From Nonomuraea coxensis DSM 45129 (GTDB lineage Bacteria > Actinomycetota > Actinomycetes > Streptosporangiales > Streptosporangiaceae): a DNA stretch of 64,000 nucleotides. Location of the stretch: NCBI RefSeq assembly GCF_019397265.1, contig NZ_CP068985.1, positions 6,564,001 through 6,628,000 of the forward strand, read 5' to 3'. Positions 2,917 through 24,773 of this stretch are shown in pieces (the stretch's first letter is position 1; every line of letters begins with the position of its first letter). A program made the position numbers and the translations under genes. Under the pieces are notes generated by a model. It had not been told where the DNA came from. It worked only from the letters and a program-made list of their open reading frames with translations, and searched no databases.

Positions 2917-4671
2917 TTGGCGGAGGAGCACCACTCGGCGGAGGAACCACGCGCGCCCCTGCGGCGCATCGTCACCCTGTTCCGCGCCTACCGCGGCCGG
3001 CTGGCCCTGGTGGGCTCCCTCATCGTGCTGTCCTCGCTGGTGTCGCTCGCCTCGCCGTTCCTCCTCCGCGAGGTGCTGGACGTCGCCATCCCGGCCAGGG
3101 ACGCCGGGCTGCTCGCGCTGCTGTCCCTCGGCATGATCGCGGTGGCGGTCACCACCAGCGTGTTCGACGTGCTGCAGACGCTCATCTCGACGACGGTCGG
3201 CCAGCGGGTGATGCACGACCTGCGCATCGCCGTGTACGCGCACCTCCAGCGCATGTCCCTGGCCTTCTTCACCCGCACGAGGACCGGCGAGGTGCAGTCC
3301 CGCATCGCCAACGACATCGGCGGCATGCAGCAGGTCGTCACCTCGACCGCCTCGTCCTTCGTCTCGAACCTCACCACCGTGATCGCGACGATCGCCGCCA
3401 TGGTCGCGCTCGACTGGCGGCTGACCGTGATCTCCCTCCTGCTGCTGCCGCTGTTCGTGTGGATCAGCCGCAGGGTCGGCGCCGAGCGCAAGCGCATCAC
3501 CTCCGAACGGCAGCGCAAGCTCGCCACGATCGCCTCGATGGTCCAGGAGTCGCTGTCGGTCAGCGGCATCCTGCTCGGCCGGACGATGGGCCGCTCCGAC
3601 GCGCTGACCGAGCGCTTCGGCCGCGCCTCCGACGAGCTGGCCGACCTCGGCGTACGCATGAGCATGTCCGGGCGGTGGCGGCAGGCGTCCATCCAGATCG
3701 TCATGGCCGCGATGCCGGCGGTGGTCTACTGGGCGGTCGGCCACACGGGGGCCATCTCGGTCGGGACGCTGGTGGCGTTCACGACGCTGCAGACGAGCCT
3801 GTTCCGGCCGGCGGTGTCGCTGCTGCGGCTGGGCGTGGAGGTGCAGACCTCGCTGGCGCTGTTCGGGCGCATCTTCGAGTACCTGGACCTGCCGATCGAC
3901 ATCCGGCCCGGCACGCGGACGCTGGAGCGGGTCCGGGGCGAGGTGCGTTTCGAGGGCGTCGAGTTCGCCTACGGCGACACGCCCACCCTGGGGGGCGTGG
4001 ACCTCACCGTCCCCGCCGGGTCGAGCGTGGCGGTCGTGGGCGAGACCGGCGCGGGCAAGACCACGCTGAGCTACCTGCCGCCCCGCCTGTACGACGTCAC
4101 CGGCGGCCGGGTGACCATCGACGGGGTGGACGTGCGTGAGCTGACGTTCGAGACGCTGAGCGCGACCGTCGGCGTGGTCTCGCAGGAGACCTACCTCTTC
4201 CACGCCTCGATCGCCGACAACCTGCGCTTCGCCCGGCCGGACGCGAGCGACGAGGAGCTGGAGGCGGCGGCCAGGGCCGCGCGCATCCACGACCACATCG
4301 CCGCCCTCCCCGACGGGTACGACACGCTGGTCGGCGAGCGCGGCTACCGCTTTTCCGGGGGAGAGAAACAGCGCCTCGCCATCGCGCGCACGCTGCTGCG
4401 CGACCCTCCGGTGCTGATCCTCGACGAGGCCACCAGCGCGCTCGACACGCAGACCGAGCGGGCGGTGCAGGAGGCGCTGGACGCGCTGGCGCGGGGGCGC
4501 ACGACGATCACGATCGCGCACCGGCTGTCCACGGTGCGGGACGCCGACCAGATCGTGGTGCTCGACCGCGGCCGGATCGCCGAGCGCGGCACCCACGAGG
4601 AGCTGATGGCGGCCGGCGGGCAGTACGCGGCGCTCGTCAGCCGGGACCGGCCCGAACTGCTGTCGGCCTGA
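2917..4671 (+). CDS. ABC transporter, fused permease and ATPase (exporter)
   Basis: A 584-residue half-transporter with membrane domain first and ATPase second, the layout of drug, lipid and peptide exporters. Hydrophobic segments run from about residues 28 to 300. The nucleotide-binding domain has Walker A GETGAGKT at 375-382, the signature FSGGEKQRLAIAR, Walker B VLILDEATSALD and the switch IAHRLST. It would work as a homodimer or with an unlinked partner. The TTG start at 2917 is chosen because AAAGGAG ends seven bases upstream. The substrate is unknown. The neighbouring MarR regulator suggests induction by a small toxic or phenolic ligand. The stop is followed by a 200-base gap before hsp20. 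Confidence 0.92.
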   Translation: MAEEHHSAEEPRAPLRRIVTLFRAYRGRLALVGSLIVLSSLVSLASPFLLREVLDVAIPARDAGLLALLSLGMIAVAVTTSVFDVLQTLISTTVGQRVMHDLRIAVYAHLQRMSLAFFTRTRTGEVQSRIANDIGGMQQVVTSTASSFVSNLTTVIATIAAMVALDWRLTVISLLLLPLFVWISRRVGAERKRITSERQRKLATIASMVQESLSVSGILLGRTMGRSDALTERFGRASDELADLGVRMSMSGRWRQASIQIVMAAMPAVVYWAVGHTGAISVGTLVAFTTLQTSLFRPAVSLLRLGVEVQTSLALFGRIFEYLDLPIDIRPGTRTLERVRGEVRFEGVEFAYGDTPTLGGVDLTVPAGSSVAVVGETGAGKTTLSYLPPRLYDVTGGRVTIDGVDVRELTFETLSATVGVVSQETYLFHASIADNLRFARPDASDEELEAAARAARIHDHIAALPDGYDTLVGERGYRFSGGEKQRLAIARTLLRDPPVLILDEATSALDTQTERAVQEALDALARGRTTITIAHRLSTVRDADQIVVLDRGRIAERGTHEELMAAGGQYAALVSRDRPELLSA

Positions 4672-4790
4672 CCGCCCCGGGGACACGACGGGCCGGAGTC
4701 CCGGGCCGCCCGCCATCGCCACGGCCCTGTCGCGCCGCCGGTAGGCCCCCGCGCGAGGCCGGCCCTTCGGACAGCGTTTCCTTCCCTCAC

Positions 4791-4840
4791 TTGCCTTCCC
4801 CTCGCGCTGGAGCTAACCTGTAACTGTACTTGGAGGTTAG
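4791..4840 (+). promoter_or_regulatory. hsp20 promoter with overlapping inverted-repeat operator
   Basis: TTGCCT (4791-4796) and TAACCT (4814-4819) are 17 bases apart, a good housekeeping-type promoter. The -10 hexamer lies inside a perfect 7-base inverted repeat, CTAACCT (4813-4819) and AGGTTAG (4834-4840), with a 14-base spacer. A repressor bound here would cover the -10 box and start site. The HspR-like MerR protein encoded in the same operon is the obvious candidate, by analogy with HspR binding at its HAIR repeats; that link is inference. Confidence 0.6.
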
Positions 4841-4874
4841 ATACAACCAAGAGCGCAGCGAGGAGGTCCCAACC

Positions 4875-5303
4875 ATGCTTCTCACCTCGATCGACCCGTT
4901 CATCCAGGAGTTCGAGCGGCAGTTCAACCGCCTGGCCCGGCAGTCCTTCGACAACGGCTCACCCATGCCGATGGACGGCCTGCGCCGTGACGGCGACGTG
5001 GTCCTGCGCTTCGACCTCCCCGGCATCGACCCCGACTCCATCGAGGTCACCGTGGACCGCGGCGTCCTCAGCGTCAGCGCGCGCCGCGAGGAGGAGATCG
5101 GCGAGCAGGAGCGGCTGTTCGTGCGCGAGCGCCCCATGGGCACCTTCACCCGCCGGGTCTACCTGTCGGAGCACCTCGACAGCGACAGGATCGACGCGGC
5201 CTACGCCAACGGCGTGCTCACCGTCCGCATCCCGGTGCTGGAGCGGGCCAAGCCGCGCAAGGTCGAGATCCAGCGCGGCGACGCCAAGGCCATCAGGGCC
5301 TGA
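4875..5303 (+). CDS. Hsp20/alpha-crystallin small heat-shock protein
   Basis: A 142-residue cytoplasmic holdase chaperone. The alpha-crystallin domain covers about residues 38-130: it starts at VVLRFDLPGIDPDSIEV and ends with ANGVLTVRIPV, the family hallmark. The N-terminal arm (LLTSIDPFIQEFERQFNRLA) is typical of actinobacterial HSP18-type proteins. The start at 4875 is set by GGAGG seven bases upstream. It is the first gene of a probable two-gene unit with the MerR regulator, with a strong hairpin between them. Repression through the overlapping operator and relief on heat stress is the expected control. Confidence 0.93.
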   Translation: MLLTSIDPFIQEFERQFNRLARQSFDNGSPMPMDGLRRDGDVVLRFDLPGIDPDSIEVTVDRGVLSVSARREEEIGEQERLFVRERPMGTFTRRVYLSEHLDSDRIDAAYANGVLTVRIPVLERAKPRKVEIQRGDAKAIRA

Positions 5304-16157: not shown

Positions 16158-17414
16158 TCACTTACCGAGCGAACGCGAAAGCCTTTCGCAATGGGCGCTC
16201 AGCAGCTCGACGGTCTCCTCGCGGGTGGTCGTCGTCACCGACAGCTTGGTGAACGCCTGGTGGTAGGACTCCACCGCGCCGGTGTCGGTGAGCAGCTCGT
16301 CGCGGTCGATGCCGTGGGCGCAGGCGACGTCGGCCTCGAACGCCTCCGCGAAGCGCCAGAGCGTGAAGGGGCCGGTGCGCGGCACGTAGGCGGGGTCGTC
16401 CATCGGCACCACGTGCAGCGAGACGTTGGGCCGCTTGGCCTGGTCCATCAGCGTCTCCAGCTGGCGGAGCTGGATGTGCCTGCCGACGATCGAGCGCAGC
16501 AGCACGCTCTCGTCGATGATCGCCCACAGCACGACGCCGCTGTCGCGGTTGAGCGCCTCCTGGCGGGCCATCACCAGGGCGAGCGCCTCCTCGACGGTCG
16601 GCTGGCCGAGGGTGGCCGGGCCCATCACGGTGACCGCGGCGCGGGCGTATTCCTCGGTCTGCAGCAGCGGCGGCACGAACTGAGTGTGGAAGGTGCGGAT
16701 CAGCGTGGCCCGCCGCTCCAGCGCGTAGGTGGTGGCCAGCCAGACCGGGATGGAGTGCGCGTCGTACCAGGCGGCCTCGCGCTCGCCGCGGGCCAGCGAC
16801 AGGACGTATTCGCGGATCGGCGGCGAGCCGACGCCGAAGAGGGTGAGCAGGCGCTCGACGGTGATCGGCGGCGGCGCGAGCCGGCCCTCCTCGATGGCGG
16901 CGATCGGCGCCGCGCCCTTGCCGAGCGCGGTCTCGACCTGCTCCACCGACAGGTCGGCGGCCAGCCGCAGGCCGTGCAGCCGGCGGCCGAGCGCGCGGCG
17001 CTGCGGGCCGGTCAGCGGGGCGGCGGCCTCGGGGATGCCGTCGGCGGGCTCGGGCTCGTCGGGCAGGCCCTCGGCCCTGCGGGCGAGCTCGACCACGCCG
17101 CGCAGCACGCTCAGCGACGCCTCGGACAGGCCCGAGGCGGACAGGCCGAGCGTGGCGGCGCGCACCTGGAGGTCCTCCACGGCGCCGGACTCCAGGTGGT
17201 CGTCGCCGACCAGCCAGCCCACGCTCACCTGGAGGCAGGAGGCCAGCGCCCGCAGCACCTGGAGCGTCGGGTTGGTCTGTTTGCCCGTGCGGAGCTGGCT
17301 GACGTAGGCGCGGGTGATGGGGATGCCCGCCTCCGTCAGCGTGGAGGCGACCTGCGCGCCGGTGAATCCGCGCTTGGTCAGCGCGAGATCGAGCCGCTCG
17401 GCGAAGTTCGCCAC
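16158..17414 (-). CDS. XRE-family regulator with two HTH domains and DUF5753
   Basis: A 418-residue regulator. The first helix-turn-helix is at about residues 5-70 (VASTLTEAGIPITRAYVSQL). A second, more degenerate one is at about 140-200 (LRLAADLSVEQVETALGKGA). DUF5753 follows from about 210 (REAAWYDAHSIPVWLATTYALE). DUF5753 proteins usually have a single HTH and often pair with a DUF397 protein; none is seen here. The GTG start has GGAGG six bases upstream. It is divergent from the 17645 operon and may control it, an inference from position only. Confidence 0.85.
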   Translation of the reverse strand: MANFAERLDLALTKRGFTGAQVASTLTEAGIPITRAYVSQLRTGKQTNPTLQVLRALASCLQVSVGWLVGDDHLESGAVEDLQVRAATLGLSASGLSEASLSVLRGVVELARRAEGLPDEPEPADGIPEAAAPLTGPQRRALGRRLHGLRLAADLSVEQVETALGKGAAPIAAIEEGRLAPPPITVERLLTLFGVGSPPIREYVLSLARGEREAAWYDAHSIPVWLATTYALERRATLIRTFHTQFVPPLLQTEEYARAAVTVMGPATLGQPTVEEALALVMARQEALNRDSGVVLWAIIDESVLLRSIVGRHIQLRQLETLMDQAKRPNVSLHVVPMDDPAYVPRTGPFTLWRFAEAFEADVACAHGIDRDELLTDTGAVESYHQAFTKLSVTTTTREETVELLSAHCERLSRSLGK

Positions 17415-17533
17415 GGCACACCTCCTACTGCCCGTGAACTTTTCCAGCGTAAGGGACGCGGGGCCCGGTGTCCCCCGCCATGCGGGCTAGCTCTGCCCCG
17501 CGGGTGGGAACCAACTTATGCGGAAACTGCCAG

Positions 17534-17563
17534 TTGACATAGCCCCCTCTCGAAGCAGACTAT
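17534..17563 (+). promoter_or_regulatory. Putative promoter of the 17645-23063 operon
   Basis: A consensus TTGACA (17534-17539) is followed after 18 bases by GACTAT (17558-17563). The leader of about 75 bases leads to GGAGG and the ATG at 17645. A consensus -35 box stands out in this G/C-rich genome. Confidence 0.45.
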
Positions 17564-17644
17564 CGGAGCACGCTGATAAGTGGGGCTTAACGGCCGGAAG
17601 ATTCTGCAGAGAGTTCCCCGACGAGGAGGTGGCCGGAGGTGACC

Positions 17645-18397
17645 ATGGAAGTCTCGGGCGGTTCCTGGTTCCAAGAGGATTCGGTCCCTTCCGTCCAGGA
17701 GCGCGTGGTACATCGCATCTGCAGCCGCGTCACCGAGGCCGACGTGCACGTGGCCGACCTGCCGCTGGGCGGCGTCCAGGTCTGGCTGGACGACGCCGGC
17801 GACCGCTGGCGCCACTACCACCGGATGGCCCGCGAGCTGCGACTGGCCGGCTGGCACACGGAGACGGGACCCGACCGGCTGCTGCTGCTCGGCTGGAGCT
17901 CGGTGTGCCTGAGCCACCGGGCGAGAATGCTGGGCGCGGCCCTGTCGGGACGGCTCGCCGACTTCGACCGTACGGCGTTCACCGCCGTCATGGCCGCCAC
18001 CCGGCTGCTGCACGACGGCTTCCCCGCCCAGGACCTCGCCGCCGAGGTGGAGGCGCGCTGCCGCCGCCTGCTGCGCTGGCCCGAGCGGCTGGCCGACCTC
18101 GACGGCCTCCAGCGCACGTCGTCGCTGGAGCCCATGCGGCTCCGCCTGGCCCAGGTGGCCGGGCTGGAGGCCAAGGTGGGCCGGCGCTGCGGCGAGCACC
18201 TGGCGCTCGCGGCCAAGGTCGCGCGGATGGTCGCCGGCGGCGCGATGCCGGCCGCCGCCCGCGCGGGCGCCCCGCGTGCCCGGCAGGCCGGCCGGACGGC
18301 CGAGCGGGCCGGGCTGGGCGAGCGGGCCGGGCTGACCGAGCGCATGGTCCGCGCCAGCGTGCCCAACCTGGCCCTGAGCGTGGTGACCGCGCGATGA
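17645..18397 (+). CDS. Conserved-looking protein of unknown function
   Basis: A 250-residue soluble protein, not recognised. The first 180 residues look globular, with VHVADLPLGGVQVWLDDAGD near the start and several amphipathic helices (HRARMLGAALSGRL, DLAAEVEARCRRLLRW). The last 60 residues are rich in Arg and Ala and probably disordered. There is no signal peptide or membrane segment. The ATG at 17645 has GGAGG five bases upstream. It is the first gene after a consensus promoter, and its stop overlaps the next start by ATGA, so it heads the operon that contains the isomerase and monooxygenase. Confidence 0.7.
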   Translation: MEVSGGSWFQEDSVPSVQERVVHRICSRVTEADVHVADLPLGGVQVWLDDAGDRWRHYHRMARELRLAGWHTETGPDRLLLLGWSSVCLSHRARMLGAALSGRLADFDRTAFTAVMAATRLLHDGFPAQDLAAEVEARCRRLLRWPERLADLDGLQRTSSLEPMRLRLAQVAGLEAKVGRRCGEHLALAAKVARMVAGGAMPAAARAGAPRARQAGRTAERAGLGERAGLTERMVRASVPNLALSVVTAR

Positions 18398-19134
18398 CGA
18401 CCACCTCACCTCACACGTACGCGCCGCCGCCCTGGAGCGGGCGCCGGCCGGTCGCGACCGACCGGCCCGGCCCGCTCGTCCCCTCAGGGGGACCGGCGGC
18501 GCGCCTGGCGCTGGCCCCGGCGCTGTCCTGCCTTCCCGGCACCGTGCGGCACGTGCCCGACAAAGTCGGCGCGGTGCTGTTGGCCAGCGCGGTAGCGGCT
18601 GGCGTGCTGGCCAAACCGGAGGACAGCGCCTGGGGTCGGCTTGGTCCGCGTTCGCCGGGGTGCGGGGTTCCGCCCCGCCCCCGGCGACGCGCGGCCCCGA
18701 CGACAGATCACTTCACCGAAATGCTGATGACCACAAGGGACGGGATCATCTCTGGCGGGGGTCCCGTCCCGTGCGGAGGCCGCGCGAGGCGTGCCTCCGT
18801 GTCCGAGGCCGTCGGCATGGGGGCGATGCCGGGCAGTGCGATCGGCGTGACGGGCGCCGCTGTGCTGATCGGCCGGCCGTTCGGGAACGGTCCGGCGCCC
18901 ATGCGTTCCTCCGTGCTGGTGGCCGCCCTGATGGCCGCCGTTCCGCTCGACTCCGCGGCGCTGGTGCGGGTCGCCGCCGCGTCGAGCCATGAGACCGCAC
19001 GTCGATCACACCGACGATCTCGACGTCGATCTCAGCGCGCGGCAGGTGGAGGGCCGGCGATGCCGAGCCGGCCCTCTGCCCACTCCGTGCGCGACCGGTT
19101 TCATCGGGTCTCCAGCCCAGCCATGCACCGATAG
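18394..19134 (+). CDS. Hypothetical protein, possibly translationally coupled
   Basis: The 246-residue frame begins at an ATG that overlaps the preceding stop (ATGA). Residues 1-90 and about 115-200 have normal G/C third positions and a hydrophobic stretch (SAIGVTGAAVLIG and SSVLVAALMAAVPL), which may be membrane-associated. The part between them and the Arg/Ser-rich last 45 residues look non-coding. It may therefore be a real gene with poorly conserved linkers, a fused pair of small genes, or partly spurious. No family is recognised. Confidence 0.35.
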   Translation: MTTTSPHTYAPPPWSGRRPVATDRPGPLVPSGGPAARLALAPALSCLPGTVRHVPDKVGAVLLASAVAAGVLAKPEDSAWGRLGPRSPGCGVPPRPRRRAAPTTDHFTEMLMTTRDGIISGGGPVPCGGRARRASVSEAVGMGAMPGSAIGVTGAAVLIGRPFGNGPAPMRSSVLVAALMAAVPLDSAALVRVAAASSHETARRSHRRSRRRSQRAAGGGPAMPSRPSAHSVRDRFHRVSSPAMHR

Positions 19135-19146
19135 ACAGGAGCGGAC

Positions 19147-19326
19147 ATGCTCGCCGACGAGACGCACAGGTCACGACCACACGAGGTTCGCCCGGCCCGG
19201 CCAGGGCCGCCGCACGACGAGCCCGGCCCCGAGGCGGGAGCGCGTGGAGCGCACCGGCTGCGCAGGATCCGCCACGTGCCCGCGCACGCGCCCATCGACC
19301 GGACGCCGCGGCGCCGTGCGCACTGA
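19147..19326 (+). CDS. Small hypothetical protein
   Basis: A 59-residue frame that is highly basic (Arg, His, Pro). Its ATG has GGAG six bases upstream and it fills the gap between two operon members, ending 25 bases before the isomerase start. Third positions are mostly G or C, as in neighbouring genes. There is no membrane segment and no known motif. Its existence rests on the ribosome site and position. Confidence 0.35.
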   Translation: MLADETHRSRPHEVRPARPGPPHDEPGPEAGARGAHRLRRIRHVPAHAPIDRTPRRRAH

Positions 19327-19351
19327 TCCCGCCGCTCCCGAGGAGACCTCG

Positions 19352-20170
19352 ATGCGCACCCGTTCGGTGGTGAGCCGCGGCAGGGTGGGCGTGATCGTGG
19401 CGCCCGCGAACCCGTCGGCGGAACCGGAGCTGACCCGCCTGCTCGGGTCGCGGGCCGACATGCACGTCGCCCGCTTCCCCGTGCGGCGCGGGCTGCCCCT
19501 GGCCGAGCGCCTGGAGAGCTACAACGACGAGCTCCCCCTCATGGTGTACGCCTTCGACGGCCTGCCGCTCAACGCCATGGTCATGGCCTGCAGCGAGCCC
19601 CGCTACCTGCTCGGCCCCGACGAGGACCGCGAGCAGTGCGCGCGGCTGAGCGCGGCGGCCGGCGCGCCGTTCGCCTCGTCGACCCTCGCCACGAGGGAGG
19701 CGCTGGCGCACGTCGGCGTGAGCGACATCGTGCTGGTGTCGCCGTACCAGCCGTGGCTGACGGAGCTGGCCGAGCGCTTCTGGAAGACCGCCGGGCTGAC
19801 GGTCACCCAGACGGTGCAGGTACGCGCCAAGACCGGCTACTCCTCGTACGCCGTCACCCCCTCCGAGCTGATCAGCCAGGTCGAGCTGGCCGACGTGCCC
19901 GAGGACGCGGTGCTGCTGTTCACCGGCACCGGCCTGCCCACGCTGCCCGTGCTCGGGCCGCTGAGCACCGGCAACGACCGGCTGCTGCTCACCTCGAACC
20001 TCTGCACGGCCTGGTGGGCGCTGTCGCGGGCCACCGGCCAGCGCGTGACGCTGAGCCGCGTCCCCCACCGCAGCCGCGTCCCCGCGCAGGGAGGTCACGT
20101 CCCGGCGCAGGGGAGCCCCGTGCCGTCGCAGGGGAGCCCGATCCCCGCGCAGGGGAGGCGCCCGGCATGA
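19352..20170 (+). CDS. Asp/Glu racemase superfamily, maleate cis-trans isomerase-like
   Basis: A 272-residue cytoplasmic protein of the family that includes maleate isomerase and arylmalonate decarboxylase. These enzymes use two cysteines on opposite faces of a substrate carboxylate. Here Asn20 (VAPANPSAEPE), Cys80 (NAMVMACSEP) and Cys218 (LTSNLCTAWW) occupy the expected positions, so it should be active. The tail from residue 243 is four 7-residue repeats of the type VPAQGSP, outside the fold. GGAG precedes the ATG. Its stop overlaps the start of the FAD monooxygenase (ATGA), which suggests the two act on one pathway, perhaps a diacid or aromatic compound. The substrate is unknown. Confidence 0.78.
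   Translation: MRTRSVVSRGRVGVIVAPANPSAEPELTRLLGSRADMHVARFPVRRGLPLAERLESYNDELPLMVYAFDGLPLNAMVMACSEPRYLLGPDEDREQCARLSAAAGAPFASSTLATREALAHVGVSDIVLVSPYQPWLTELAERFWKTAGLTVTQTVQVRAKTGYSSYAVTPSELISQVELADVPEDAVLLFTGTGLPTLPVLGPLSTGNDRLLLTSNLCTAWWALSRATGQRVTLSRVPHRSRVPAQGGHVPAQGSPVPSQGSPIPAQGRRPA
20078..20161 (+). repeat. Four 21-bp tandem repeats in the isomerase tail
   Basis: Copies begin at 20078, 20099, 20120 and 20141, each built around CCGCGCAGGGGAG-like sequence. The period is a multiple of three, so the frame is kept and a flexible Pro/Gln/Gly tail results. Confidence 0.8.
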
Positions 20171-21333
20171 ACGGCGTCATCGTGGTGGGTGCGGGGCCCG
20201 CGGGACTGACCGCGGCGCTCTCGCTGGCCAGGGCGGCGATCCCGGTCACCGTGCTGGAGAGCGGGAACGAGCCGCCGCGCCGGCCACGCGCCTGCACCTT
20301 CCACCCGGCCACGCTCGACCTGCTCGACGGGCTGGGCGTGGCGGCGGGGCTGGTCGCGGGAGGCCGCGTCGTGGACCGGGTCCAGTGGCGCGACCGGCTC
20401 GGCACCGTGCTCGCCGAGATGGGCATGAACCGGCTGGACGGGCTGACCCGGCATCCGTTCCGGGTCCACGCCGACCAGAACGCGCTCACGCCGCTGCTGC
20501 TGCGGGCGCTCGCCGTCTACGGCGACGCCGACGTGCGCTTCGGCGCCCGCGTGGACGGCGTGGCCGAGGGCGGCACCGGCATCCGGGTCCGGGTGGGCCA
20601 CACCTGGACGCGGGCCAGGTACCTCATCGCCGCCGACGGCGCGCAGAGCACCGTGCGGGCCGCGCTGGGGCTGCCGTTCCCCCGGTCGGGGCACATCGCG
20701 CAGGCGCTGCGGGTGTTCACCGACTCGCCGCTGGACCGGCTGCTGCCGAGCCTCGCGCCGCTCACGCACGTACGGGACGTCCAGCAGTCGTGCACCCTGT
20801 TCGGGCTCTCCGACCACTGGCGGATCATCTTCAAGATCCCCGTGGACGGGCACGAGCCGCTGTCGCAGGGGAACCTGTCGATGCTGGTCCGCCGGGCGCT
20901 GCCGGGCGCGGGCGGCCCGATCCGGGTGGCCGGCGCGGACCGGTTCGCCCTGTCGCGGGGGGTGCTGCCGTCGTACCGGTGCGGGCGGGTGCTGTTCGTC
21001 GGCGACGCGGCGCACCTGACCTCGACGGTCGGCGGGCTCAACATGAACGCCGGCATCCACGACGCCGCTGAGGCCGCCCAGGTGATCGCCGCCGTGCTGC
21101 GCGGCCACGCCAGGCCGGCCGCGCTGGAGGCGTGGGCGTGGCGGCGGCGCTCGGTGCTGATGCAGCGGGTGCTGCCGCGCGGCGAGACCCGGCTGGTGGG
21201 CGTGCGCGAGCACGACAACGCCCGGCTGGCCGCGGCCATGGACGGGTTGCGGGCGATCGCCGGCGACCCCGACGCGACCCGGGCGTACCTGGCCCAGGCG
21301 TCCCTGCTCGACAACGTGCCGGGACGAACGTGA
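20167..21333 (+). CDS. FAD-dependent monooxygenase
   Basis: A 388-residue class A flavoprotein hydroxylase of the UbiH/PHBH fold. The Rossmann motif is VVGAGPAGLTAALSLARA at residues 5-22, a second motif is the YLIAADGAQSTVR block (DG motif), and the FAD ribityl motif is VLFVGDAAHLTSTVGGLNMN. These enzymes use NAD(P)H and oxygen to hydroxylate aromatic or polyketide substrates. It lacks a C-terminal thioredoxin-like extension. It is translationally coupled to the isomerase before it. The aromatic substrate is not predictable. The two genes together would fit oxidation and isomerisation in degradation or tailoring of an aromatic acid. Confidence 0.85.
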   Translation: MNGVIVVGAGPAGLTAALSLARAAIPVTVLESGNEPPRRPRACTFHPATLDLLDGLGVAAGLVAGGRVVDRVQWRDRLGTVLAEMGMNRLDGLTRHPFRVHADQNALTPLLLRALAVYGDADVRFGARVDGVAEGGTGIRVRVGHTWTRARYLIAADGAQSTVRAALGLPFPRSGHIAQALRVFTDSPLDRLLPSLAPLTHVRDVQQSCTLFGLSDHWRIIFKIPVDGHEPLSQGNLSMLVRRALPGAGGPIRVAGADRFALSRGVLPSYRCGRVLFVGDAAHLTSTVGGLNMNAGIHDAAEAAQVIAAVLRGHARPAALEAWAWRRRSVLMQRVLPRGETRLVGVREHDNARLAAAMDGLRAIAGDPDATRAYLAQASLLDNVPGRT

Positions 21334-21350
21334 CGAGGAGGTGACGCCGG

Positions 21351-23063
21351 ATGTGGCAGACGCTGTCCGACGACGCGCGGCAGGCCGTCCGCGACCTGTG
21401 CGACCAGCACGGGGCGCGCCTGTACGACTACTGCCGCACCGAGCTGGCCGCGGGCGACGCCGAACAGGCGGTCGCGGGCGCGCTGCTGACGGCTCACCTG
21501 TACGCCGGGCGCGTGAGCGACCCGGCCCTGACCCGGCCCTGGCTGTACGCGCTGGCCCGCGCGCACCGCGCCGTCGTGGCCAAACCGGCCAGCATCGGCT
21601 CCTGGTCCCGCCCCGGCCGCATGTCGGAGCTGCTGCCCGAGGCGCTGCTGTCGCTGGAGCGGCCGCAGCGCGAGCTGCTGGACCTGTCGGTACGGCACGG
21701 CCTGGCCGACATCGAGCTCGCCACGATCTTCGAGCTGGACGTGGCCGAGGTGCGCGCGATCGTGACCCGGGCCGCGGCCGGCCTTGAGGAGTGGTTCGCC
21801 GCGATCATCGCCGCGCGCGGCCCCGAAGGGTGCGAGGACCTGACCGCGCGGGTGTCGGCGTGGGTCGCCGCGCCCGGCCGCCGGGCCAGGGCGAGGCTCG
21901 GCCGCCACATCCAGTCCTGCGCGACCTGCCGGGCCGCGCCCAGGACCGTGTCGGCGGCGGCGCTGCTGCGCCGGCTGCCGATCGCCACCGTGCCCGGCAC
22001 CCTCGCGAACCGGCTGGCGTCTGCGCAGCCTCTGCCCGGAGAGGGACCTCTCTGGCGGGCGGACGGCTTTCCCGTGCAGGCACGCACACTGGTGGAGACC
22101 GGCCCCGCGGAGACTGGCCGCTGGGCCTCCGCTCCACCGGTCGCCGACGCCACGCCGTCCGTCCCCGTCGCCGACCCCACGACGGCGACGCAGGGAAAGC
22201 CCTGGTCGGCGGCGGGCGCGGCCGCCGCCGACCAGGAGCTCCCGGCCGCTCCCGCGGTGCGCGGGCGGCATCCGTTCGCGCCGCAGAGCCGGACCAGGGC
22301 GTTCCGCGGGGGCGCGTACACCGACAAGCTCGTCTACAGCACCACGCTCAAGGGCGAGAGCAACGGCCACGCCAGGTCGCCCGACGCGATCATCCGCTAC
22401 GGCGGCATCACGATGAGCGGCGAGCCGGGCGGCGCGGGCAAGCCGTGGCAGGAGTACTGGAAGGAGCCGCCCGACGACGACCCGGAGGCGGGCGCCCCGA
22501 TCCGCGCGGTGTCCCGGCTGGCGCTGCTCATGGGCGTGGGCCTGCTCGCGGCCGGCCTGGTGTGGGCGCTGCTGAACGCCCGTGACCACCCGGCCGTCGT
22601 CACCAAGGCGGCGGCGCAGACGAACGTGCTGCTGGAGCGGCCCTCGAAGTGGGTGGCCAAGGTCACCGCGCCCACGCCCGAGCCGGTCCCCGCCGGGCGC
22701 TCCGGGCTGAGCAGCGTGCCGAGGACGGCGGAGCTGCCGAAGCCGGCGCCGCCGGTGGCGCGGCTGACGCCCTCGTCGATCTCGCTGGGCGCGGCCCGCG
22801 CCGGGTCGTTCGCGCTGGCGTGCACGGGCCGCTGCACGATCACCTCGGTCAGCGCCACGTCCGGCCTGTCGGTCTCGGGCCGGAACTTCCGGGTACGCGA
22901 GCGGGCCGCCGAGTGCGGCGAGCGGGACCGCGGCGGCCGGATCGTGGTCCGCTGGGCCGGCACGGCCACGGGCGACGGCGTACGCACCGGCGGCACGACG
23001 TCCGCGCGGGGCACGCTGACCCTCGACGTGAGCTGGACCGCCGGCCGGGGCCCCTGCGCGTAG
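21351..23063 (+). CDS. Sigma-factor-like/anti-sigma-like membrane fusion protein
   Basis: A 570-residue protein. Residues 1-150 resemble an ECF sigma factor: a region-2-like helix block (GARLYDYCRTELAAGDAEQAV, read here in parts) and a region-4-like block (HGLADIELATIFELDVAEVRAIV). Residues 160-200 look like a zinc anti-sigma domain, with His186-x3-Cys190-x2-Cys193. A Pro/Ala-rich linker leads to one membrane helix (about 389-410), then about 160 extracellular residues with paired cysteines. The sigma part lacks the strong acidic region 2 motif, so it may not bind core polymerase. AGGAGG precedes the ATG. It ends the operon at a hairpin. Confidence 0.7.
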   Translation: MWQTLSDDARQAVRDLCDQHGARLYDYCRTELAAGDAEQAVAGALLTAHLYAGRVSDPALTRPWLYALARAHRAVVAKPASIGSWSRPGRMSELLPEALLSLERPQRELLDLSVRHGLADIELATIFELDVAEVRAIVTRAAAGLEEWFAAIIAARGPEGCEDLTARVSAWVAAPGRRARARLGRHIQSCATCRAAPRTVSAAALLRRLPIATVPGTLANRLASAQPLPGEGPLWRADGFPVQARTLVETGPAETGRWASAPPVADATPSVPVADPTTATQGKPWSAAGAAAADQELPAAPAVRGRHPFAPQSRTRAFRGGAYTDKLVYSTTLKGESNGHARSPDAIIRYGGITMSGEPGGAGKPWQEYWKEPPDDDPEAGAPIRAVSRLALLMGVGLLAAGLVWALLNARDHPAVVTKAAAQTNVLLERPSKWVAKVTAPTPEPVPAGRSGLSSVPRTAELPKPAPPVARLTPSSISLGAARAGSFALACTGRCTITSVSATSGLSVSGRNFRVRERAAECGERDRGGRIVVRWAGTATGDGVRTGGTTSARGTLTLDVSWTAGRGPCA

Positions 23064-23144: not shown

Positions 23145-24773
23145 ATGATGGGGCATCGTCCCGAGCGGCCGGTAGGGCCGGATGTGTGGAGCACCTGCCG
23201 GGAGTTGATCCCGGCAGGGAGCGTGTACGCCTTCCTGGCCGACCACCGCGATGAGCTGTTTCCCGAGGAGATGTTCGCCGACCTGTATGCCGCGACCGAT
23301 GGCCGGCCGAGCATCCCGCCGCAGATGCTGGCGTGTGTGCTGGTGTTGCAGGCATTGCTGCATCACTCCGATCCTGAAGCCGCGCTGGCGGTGCGCTGTG
23401 ATCTGCGCTGGAAGGCCGCCTGCGGGCTGGGACTGCAGGATCGGGGCTTCGATCCCTCCCTGCTGGTGTACTTCCGGCAGCGGCTGCGCAGGTCGGGCGA
23501 CCCGAACCGGATCTTTGCCCGGGTCAGCCGCCTGGCCGCCGGCAGCGGGGCCCTGCGCGGCCGGACCCGGCGGGTGCTGGACTCGGCCGTGCTGGACGAC
23601 GCGGTGGCCACCCAGGACACCATCACCCAGCTGATCGCGGCGATCCGGCGGGCGGGCAGGCAGGTGCCCGGCGCCGCCCAGGTGATCGCCGGACATTGTC
23701 ATGCCACCGACTACACCGAGGCGGGCAAACCCGCCATCGCCTGGAACGACGCCACGGCACGGCAGGAACTGGTGTCCGGCCTGGTCACCGATGCGCTCAC
23801 GGTGGTGGCCGCGTTCGAGACGGCCGCGCTGGCGGGCGAGCTGGACGAGACGGCCGGCCAGGCGCTGGCGCTGCTGGCGCTGGTGGCCGGGCAGGATGTC
23901 GAACCGGCCGAGGGCTCTGACGGCACCGATGGGCGCTGGCGGATCGCGCGCAAGGTCGCCACCGACCGGGTCATCTCCACCGTCGACGCCCAGGCCCGGC
24001 ACGTGCACAAGACCGTGCACCACCGGCAGGACGGCTACAAGGCGCATGTCGTGATCGAGCCCGATACCGGACTGTTCACCGGCGTCCGGCTGACCATGGC
24101 CACCGGAGCCGGCAACCACGAGGCGGTGGTCGGTGTCGATCTACTGGCCGAGCCACCCGCCGAGCCACCCGCCGAGCCACCCGCCGACCCGCCGGCCGGC
24201 CCGGCGACGTTCGAGGTGCTGGGCGACACGGCGTATGGCACCGGAGACGCCCGCGCCGCGCTGGCCGCTGCCGGGCACTTCGTCATCTTCAAGCCCGCAC
24301 CCCTGCGCCCGGCGGTGCCCGGCGGCTTCACCATCGACGACTTCCATGTCGATGAGGCTGCGGGCACGGTCACCTGCCCAGCTGATGTGACACGGCGCCT
24401 CACCGCGGCACGGTCGGTGACCTTCGGAGCCGCCTGCCGGTCCTGCCCGTTCCGGCAACGCTGCACGACCAGCAAGAACGGTCGTTCCTTACAGGTGCAT
24501 CCACACGACGCCCTGTTACGACAGGCCCGTCATGCCTGGGCCACCGATCCCGGCCTGACCGCCACCTACCGGCAGCACCGCCCCATGGTCGAACGCTCCA
24601 TCGCCTGGCTCATCGGCGCCGACGGCGGCGCCCGCAAGCTCCGCTACCGCGGCGTCCAGCGCAACAACCTCTGGCTCCACCTCCGGGCAGCCGCCCTGAA
24701 CCTGCGTCGCCTGATCAACCTCGGACTCACTCCCACCCAGGGCACCTGGGCGCTCCAGCCGGCCACCGGCTGA
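23145..24773 (+). CDS. IS1182-family transposase
   Basis: A 542-residue DDE transposase, uninterrupted. The N-terminal domain (SVYAFLADHRDELFP and MLACVLVLQALLHHSD) is the DUF772-type domain of this family. The catalytic candidates are Asp in RVLDSAVLDDA, Asp in EVLGDTAYGTG and Glu in RPMVERSIAWL. A cysteine cluster (CRSCPFRQRC) precedes the last block, as in other members. Around residue 335 three exact 12-base repeats encode AEPPAEPPAEPP in a loop. The start at 23145 is followed at once by a second ATG, and either may be used. Confidence 0.93.
   Translation: MMGHRPERPVGPDVWSTCRELIPAGSVYAFLADHRDELFPEEMFADLYAATDGRPSIPPQMLACVLVLQALLHHSDPEAALAVRCDLRWKAACGLGLQDRGFDPSLLVYFRQRLRRSGDPNRIFARVSRLAAGSGALRGRTRRVLDSAVLDDAVATQDTITQLIAAIRRAGRQVPGAAQVIAGHCHATDYTEAGKPAIAWNDATARQELVSGLVTDALTVVAAFETAALAGELDETAGQALALLALVAGQDVEPAEGSDGTDGRWRIARKVATDRVISTVDAQARHVHKTVHHRQDGYKAHVVIEPDTGLFTGVRLTMATGAGNHEAVVGVDLLAEPPAEPPAEPPADPPAGPATFEVLGDTAYGTGDARAALAAAGHFVIFKPAPLRPAVPGGFTIDDFHVDEAAGTVTCPADVTRRLTAARSVTFGAACRSCPFRQRCTTSKNGRSLQVHPHDALLRQARHAWATDPGLTATYRQHRPMVERSIAWLIGADGGARKLRYRGVQRNNLWLHLRAAALNLRRLINLGLTPTQGTWALQPATG

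Follow-up and report, generated by a model that had tools for sequence, protein, structure and literature searches.

The window analysed here is a 64,000-nucleotide stretch (positions 6,564,001-6,628,000) of the 9.07 Mb single-contig chromosome of Nonomuraea coxensis DSM 45129. It contains four plus-strand open reading frames (ORFs) running in the same direction, U252 (17639-18397, starting at GTG 17639 or ATG 17645), AMD (19352-20170), FMO (20167-21333) and SIGF (21351-23063). Comparison with related loci, which are given here by numbers prefixed with L, revealed that the window holds a reduced but still maintained form of a larger cluster, which is well supported. The strongest result is the reduction series itself together with its link to duplicated aminolevulinate/porphobilinogen (PBG) genes. 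We read the system as a specialised pathway drawing on aminolevulinate/PBG, with FMO and AMD as tailoring enzymes and the window as a reduced but still selected version, and assign this reading a probability of about 0.5. In related bacteria the cluster has its own early heme-pathway copies beside an oxygenase, which hints at the diversion of a building block of heme to a different small molecule; we infer both the substrate, from the gene neighbourhood alone, and the product.

The window gene set is predicted, from gene layout and a conserved promoter, to be a genuine operon. The consensus promoter named in the initial annotation of this DNA was recovered, with TTGACA at 17534-17539 and GACTAT at 17558-17563 separated by an 18-base spacer, and the pattern TTGACA-N18-NA(C/G)TAT was observed once in each of 30 of 31 sequences (the window and L003-L032), the only one without it being L024, whose stretch lacks the XRE-U252 intergene. 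The promoter was recognised because it is conserved across relatives, although a fixed-consensus sigma-70 scan of the window returned no promoter site. Two related motifs, starting at 17525 (overlapping the -35 box) and 17577 (downstream), are kept in the same 30 sequences, and together with the promoter they occupy 17525-17593 of the plus strand. The coupling of the isomerase-labelled gene to the monooxygenase and the closing of the unit by a sigma/anti-sigma-like membrane protein, both reported earlier, were also confirmed, as the AMD stop overlaps the FMO ATG as ATGA at 20167-20170 and SIGF starts 17 bases after the FMO stop. The overlaps and short gaps that had been ascribed to the whole unit hold for AMD, FMO and SIGF, but not for U252, which lies 954 bases from AMD. 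The gene order is kept across the named Nonomuraea loci, and the arrangement is therefore not a matter of chance.

Within the genus, AMD was detected at E ≤ 1e-20 in 48 of 54 genomes, two of which carry a second copy; it was also detected in nine of 150 genomes of the family, six of these nine being Nonomuraea, and in five of 396 genomes of the phylum, with the window's own genome counted in each AMD survey; relatives of U252 were found in 13 of the 150 family genomes. The search of named genomes gave 32 AMD loci, comprising 30 from Nonomuraea, one from Saccharothrix (L033) and one from a distant Rhodoferax metagenome-assembled genome (L034, 24% identity) that was left out of all counts. The closest named relative is Nonomuraea wenchangensis (L003), whose AMD protein is 98% identical. 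Among the 30 named Nonomuraea loci, SIGF lies after AMD in all 30, XRE and U252 lie before it in 29 (the stretch of L024 being truncated), and 25 have FMO, the five without it being L023, L024, L025, L026 and L029. The co-occurrence that the initial annotation had proposed to look for was thus observed in these Nonomuraea loci, and it is repeated in a second, diverged copy in genome G1127 (L106), which carries U252, MFS, AMD, FMO, HYD, HEMB and SIGF together. In genome G1149, the second diverged copy (L107) yielded only a HemB fragment by tblastn and no SIGF match.

The larger cluster was visible within Nonomuraea itself. Cluster genes were placed by tblastn, since simple ORF calling went wrong for a number of them, among others in L033 and L074. 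In the long form (L027, L028, L030 and L031), U252 and AMD are separated by an intact MFS gene of 529-530 amino acids (aa), which matches Pfam MFS_1 in L027, two small genes, and a gene for a protein that matches the GlutR dimerisation domain only (Pfam E 6.3e-12 in L028 and 1.7e-12 in L031; found by tblastn in L027 and L030). After FMO, the long form continues with HYD, an Asp/Glu-racemase-like protein, then ALAD/HemB and then SIGF, the Pfam E values in L027 being 6.7e-12 for HYD and 5.2e-128 for ALAD. Two further Nonomuraea loci, L108 and L109, also have the long form, with the second small gene undetected in L109. By tblastn, HYD and HEMB were found in none of the 26 reduced named Nonomuraea loci, and the longest plus-strand ORF in the U252-AMD space of the 25 viewable reduced named loci does not exceed 411 aa. 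Fragments of MFS were nevertheless found by tblastn in this gap in 15 of 21 FMO-bearing reduced loci, and none in L010, L012, L013, L015, L016 and L019.

The window retains such remains. The plus-strand ORF at 18394-19134, earlier taken as a second unknown gene, opens at an ATGA overlapping the end of U252, and residues 407-469 of an intact MFS protein match 18787-18975 at 51% identity (tblastn). In L027, the intact MFS gene opens with the same ATGA overlap (U252 at 4217-4975, MFS from 4972). The ratio of nonsynonymous to synonymous substitution rates (dN/dS, by the Nei-Gojobori method) of this ORF was 0.81 against L003, a single pair with few changes (dS 0.045). The reading as a second unknown protein was rejected on the MFS similarity, the dN/dS of 0.81 and the intact MFS at the same place elsewhere, and the ORF is read as the relic of an MFS exporter gene. 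A degraded small gene of the s71 family was also recognised on the plus strand at 19147-19326; it begins with a sequence similar to the MLxDExxRS.PHEV seen in the other copies from Nonomuraea but no longer has their C-terminal IxxIDQAL, and its homology rests on position and inspection, as no tblastn match was obtained at E ≤ 1e-3. Among the 26 named Nonomuraea loci of the reduced form, 19 have an s71 gene just upstream of AMD. Because relics of MFS and s71 remain, we infer that the direction of evolution was loss rather than separate gain.

The most complete clusters were obtained outside Nonomuraea. The Saccharothrix locus L033 contains LuxR, F420-type oxidoreductase, LysR, DMT, AMD, FMO, HYD, HEMB, HEMA, CoA ligase (ACD) and HEML genes, while no GluRS or MFS gene was found in this stretch. 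HYD was detected in 12 of 295 genomes of Streptomyces (E ≤ 1e-20; genus g70 was taken as Streptomyces), and 11 of these 12 share one order of GluRS, MFS, F420-type oxidoreductase, LysR, DMT, LuxR, AMD, FMO, HYD, HEMB, HEMA, ACD, HEML, OHR and CaiB, the twelfth (L105) having HYD without the core genes. One full cluster (L094) lies at 64264-90356 of plasmid NZ_CP109002.1 of Streptomyces sp. NBC_00704, near the end of this 90 kb linear plasmid; its 26 kb include no annotated hemC or hemD, the plasmid gene table being incomplete by its own description. Genes for an acyl-CoA dehydrogenase, a phosphopantetheinyl transferase and a flavin reductase adjoin the L094 cluster.

For HemB and HemA, the cluster genes are additional copies in the genomes tested. 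Two ALADs were counted in all five cluster genomes tested (four Nonomuraea and Saccharothrix) and one in each of five others, the window's genome included. Two GlutRs were counted in all seven Streptomyces genomes and in the Saccharothrix genome tested, and one in all three Nonomuraea tested, using an N-terminal domain model that is blind to the dimerisation-only protein. With a second ALAD and a second GlutR in the genomes tested and no annotated hemC or hemD in L094, the cluster does not fit a housekeeping heme operon, which would be a single set running on to HemC/HemD. Like porphobilinogen synthase, the cluster HemB passes the family model (440.4 bits in L027, cut-off 297) and keeps both active-site lysines, which are present in all 29 sequences compared (19 cluster and 10 housekeeping). 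Unlike the housekeeping enzyme, whose motif is D(T/C)CLDEFTxxGHCG in 10 of 10 sequences, the cluster copies read GD(V/I)NLDExTxHGH(V/T)G in 19 of 19, with two cysteines gone, which we take to be zinc ligands of the metal site. In an unrooted HemB tree, for which L107 was left out of the alignment, the cluster copies are separated, with a support of 1.000, from a group formed by the housekeeping copies of Nonomuraea and that of Saccharothrix. HYD is likewise altered, as no cysteine was observed in 23 of 23 sequences in either of the two motifs that presumably correspond to the superfamily's cysteines.

An additional set of this kind might also serve as a backup or self-resistance early tetrapyrrole set, called upon when zinc is limiting or when an inhibitor acts on HemA, HemL or HemB, with AMD, FMO and HYD making or destroying that inhibitor. 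The Streptomyces cluster does contain GluRS-, HemA-, HemL- and HemB-like genes all together, with HemA as a second copy, and the absence of the two presumed zinc ligands is what a zinc-independent backup would show. We consider this improbable, as AMD-FMO is maintained where the hem duplicates are gone, and as the position of AMD-FMO directly before HYD-HEMB in 11 Streptomyces, Saccharothrix and four named Nonomuraea suits a pathway better.

AMD belongs to the Asp/Glu racemase superfamily (Pfam Amdase, 28.1 bits, cut-off 25.9). Its AlphaFold2 (AF2) model, with a predicted local distance difference test (pLDDT) score of 80.5, gave 4ix1 as the best Foldseek match, followed by arylmalonate decarboxylase (AMDase) 3eis (E 5.5e-10) and maleate isomerase 4fq5 (E 8.9e-10), and the predicted fold is of the arylmalonate decarboxylase/maleate isomerase type. 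AMD thus shares its predicted fold with AMDase (3eis/2vlb) and maleate cis-trans isomerase (4fq5, 2xed), with a weak sequence match. The active site differs from both. In an alignment to the maleate isomerase Iso, the first cysteine (residue 82, by offset from the title of the C200A structure) corresponds to window Cys80 and residue 200 to window Gly192, so the window protein is one cysteine short of the two-cysteine maleate cis-trans isomerase. Because the mutant titles of 3ixl and 3ixm imply a natural Gly74/Cys188 in AMDase, the window AMD, with cysteine first and glycine second, is the mirror of AMDase, and its score in the AMDase NCBIfam equivalog, 21.8 bits, falls short of the cut-off of 225. 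Across 50 AMD sequences (L001, L002, the short genome-search loci, L110, L111, L128 and L129 were left out), Cys80 is kept in 48, while the second site is glycine in 47, aspartate in one (L077) and cysteine in two; these two, L025 and L026, carry both cysteines of the maleate isomerase pattern. Among the four AMDs with an unusual cysteine pattern, the loci of L025, L026 and L029 are without FMO. The label of isomerase given in the initial annotation was accordingly dropped for the window protein. Neither a maleate isomerase nor the diacid conversion suggested there is supported as such, the second cysteine being absent from the window protein, and the neighbourhood points to aminolevulinate/PBG instead.

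FMO is a class A flavoprotein monooxygenase of 388 aa, with a FAD_binding_3 domain spanning residues 4-333 (Pfam E 1.8e-49). The closest PDB sequences, similar over nearly the whole length, are the class A monooxygenases PnpA (6ain, E 2.5e-33) and HspB (7da9, 6-hydroxy-3-succinoylpyridine 3-monooxygenase, E 5.1e-32), from whose systems FMO differs in its partner genes.

This kinship lends itself to a different explanation, in which AMD and FMO form a small catabolic or detoxifying pair for an external aromatic compound or N-heterocycle, in the manner of nicotine or nitrophenol degradation, and the hem genes found elsewhere are passengers. PnpA and HspB, as the closest solved relatives of FMO, each displace a ring substituent, and maleate isomerase belongs to nicotine catabolism. 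In L076 and L129, moreover, AMD-FMO lies beside genes for a binding-protein transporter, an aldehyde dehydrogenase and a glyoxalase-like protein, as named by inspection. On the other side, HYD and HEMB lie directly after AMD-FMO in the four named long-form Nonomuraea, Saccharothrix and 11 Streptomyces, and the window AMD lacks the second cysteine of maleate isomerase. Inspection of the called genes beside AMD-FMO in the window and the long Nonomuraea loci recognised no nicotine-type ring-cleavage dioxygenase, deformylase or amidase, with family searches covering part of the flanking ORFs. We regard such a catabolic pair as rather unlikely.

Selection on the retained genes was assessed by dN/dS. 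Against L003, values of 0.15 for AMD, 0.12 for FMO and 0.41 for SIGF were obtained; against more distant loci they were 0.33-0.58 for AMD, 0.24-0.47 for FMO, all below 1, and up to 0.49 for SIGF. U252 showed 0.30-0.43 in four pairs, with 0.30 against L003. The remnant in the window's lineage might have been repurposed, with AMD-FMO acting in another pathway under XRE and SIGF and the ancestral product abandoned. The lack of HYD/HEMB in 26 of the 30 named Nonomuraea loci, the five of 30 without FMO and the altered cysteines of four AMDs (Cys80 lost in L022 and L029, second-site cysteine in L025 and L026) would agree with this. The low dN/dS of AMD and FMO against L003, the conservation of Cys80 in 48 of 50 sequences and the housekeeping HemB still present in the window's genome speak against it, and repurposing has only a slight chance of being correct.

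In the pathway reading, the full form would start with duplicated C5-pathway enzymes making a private pool of 5-aminolevulinate and PBG, in Streptomyces through a glutamyl-tRNA synthetase, HemA, HemL and a HemB minus two metal-site cysteines. FMO would then oxidise a product of the aminolevulinate/PBG route, the order of reactions being a proposal, and AMD and HYD would process the oxidised product by carboxylate chemistry, such as decarboxylation, isomerisation or ring opening, before the MFS or DMT protein would export the final molecule. In most Nonomuraea, including the window, supply genes, HYD and exporter would have been lost and AMD-FMO kept, presumably fed by the housekeeping heme pathway. 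A local control layer would be provided by U252, the divergent XRE/DUF5753 protein and the membrane-bound SIGF.

Several observations weigh against this reading. The clustering with hem genes is no proof that FMO or AMD uses PBG, and the system could make a product derived from aminolevulinate or carry its hem copies for resistance or backup. The one-cysteine AMD is not universal, with Cys80 lost in two of 50 and a second-site cysteine in another two, and five of the 30 named Nonomuraea loci keep AMD without FMO. Relatives of AMD also occur without hem genes, with FMO and catabolic-looking neighbours in L076 and L129 and without FMO in L075, L077 and L128, and relatives of HYD occur outside the cluster in L092, L093 and L105. 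L106 has an additional thiamine pyrophosphate (TPP)-enzyme gene between MFS and AMD. The node uniting only the cluster HemBs has a support of 0.749, in a tree without a Streptomyces housekeeping copy, and dN/dS grows with distance, reaching 0.58 for AMD and 0.47 for FMO against L031.

The divergent XRE/DUF5753 gene (16158-17414, minus strand; Pfam DUF5753 E 1.8e-43, HTH_31 6.2e-15) is the probable local regulator of the AMD-FMO unit, and the motifs at 17525 and 17577 are possible operators for it. A Methyltransf_19 protein is also encoded upstream of U252 and, like the regulator, on the opposite strand.

SIGF combines an ECF (extracytoplasmic function)-sigma-like N-terminus, a zinc motif, a hydrophobic segment and a Pro-rich C-terminus. 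The sigma part is diverged: matches to NCBIfam sigma models are weak (E 0.006-0.2) and are the sole trace of region 2, while Pfam sigma region 4 was weakly matched in 10 of 15 SIGF members (best E 0.00039; 20.5 bits in L027, below the cut-off of 25.7) and no Pfam sigma match was obtained for the window protein. The HxxxCxxC motif typical of anti-sigma zinc sites (H186, C190, C193) is invariant in 15 of 15 members, and zinc binding is predicted. A hydrophobic stretch was read by eye at about residues 389-407, and the Pro-rich C-terminus beyond is presumably extracytoplasmic. ECF52 sigmas are described with a fused zinc anti-sigma part, a membrane helix and a C-terminal extension, with release by proteolysis expected (PMC5826349), and the same fused architecture and expected release are given for ECF48, ECF52 and ECF53 (PMC8999054). 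SIGF follows the order of parts described for these groups (SCO4117) in the same accounts (PMC5826349, PMC8999054), but differs from them in its diverged sigma domains and in that no carbohydrate-binding domain was found among the Pfam matches of the 15 members. By anatomy SIGF resembles ECF48/52/53-type fusions, as a candidate likeness rather than group membership, and its built-in zinc anti-sigma part would probably keep it at the membrane until a signal led to proteolytic release, as proposed for those groups. Two more proteins related to the sigma/zinc-motif part of SIGF are encoded in the same genome, at G000:C1:7275280 and 8789682-8790422. An IS1182-family transposase gene (23145-24773; NCBIfam 301.1 bits, cut-off 270) lies immediately 3' of SIGF, and it looks inserted because in N. 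wenchangensis L003 the end of SIGF is 17 bases before a peptidase gene.

For U252, neither Pfam nor NCBIfam gave a family match at E ≤ 1, and a Foldseek comparison of its AF2 model (pLDDT 80.0) with the PDB gave nothing at E ≤ 0.001. A likeness to ribosome recycling factor was set aside, since the top matches had E values of 0.01 or worse and TM scores mostly below 0.3. Relatives of U252 adjoin MFS-like genes in L041, L042, L043 and L046, without AMD or FMO within these stretches of about 3.5 kb. In the window's genome, a U252 paralogue is found with an 83-aa protein, which resembles s71 by eye, a FAD-linked oxidase-like protein and an MFS protein (L125:4131-8662, G000:C1 about 3898130-3902661), and the first three of these are found together again in L048, L049, L050 and L052, where the stretches end. 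The independent occurrence of the genes, which the initial annotation had named as evidence against a unit, was thus met with in part, as the stretches read from Saccharothrix and Streptomyces have AMD-FMO but neither U252 nor SIGF, and U252-MFS occurs without AMD-FMO. The unit is most readily understood as three joined pieces: a module of tailoring enzymes, a U252/MFS module and a regulator of the sigma type.

Of the undescribed self-regulated unit that had been proposed, the apparent novelty and a probable local regulation were retained, but the gene set of the window is a reduced remnant and not the original system. No described cluster of such content was found in the open-licence PubMed Central literature, subscription papers and cluster databases lying outside the search. 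Tentatively, the system may represent an undescribed class of actinomycete pathway that withdraws PBG, the monopyrrole from which heme is built, from tetrapyrrole synthesis. In it, a private C5 pathway would lead over a HemB with an altered metal site to FMO and to AMD and HYD, whose active sites are altered as well, and finally to an exported non-tetrapyrrole, and most Nonomuraea would have dropped the supply while retaining AMD-FMO, controlled by a sigma factor bound to the membrane. If the pathway reading is true, the series from the full form in Streptomyces through the intermediate form of some Nonomuraea to the reduced form of the window would illustrate how a cluster loses the genes for its supply and yet retains those for tailoring, and the full cluster on the sequenced plasmid of a named Streptomyces strain makes its product directly testable. 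The early heme genes would then have been copied as a block to serve specialised metabolism, and a universal building block would serve as a natural-product precursor outside the tetrapyrroles.

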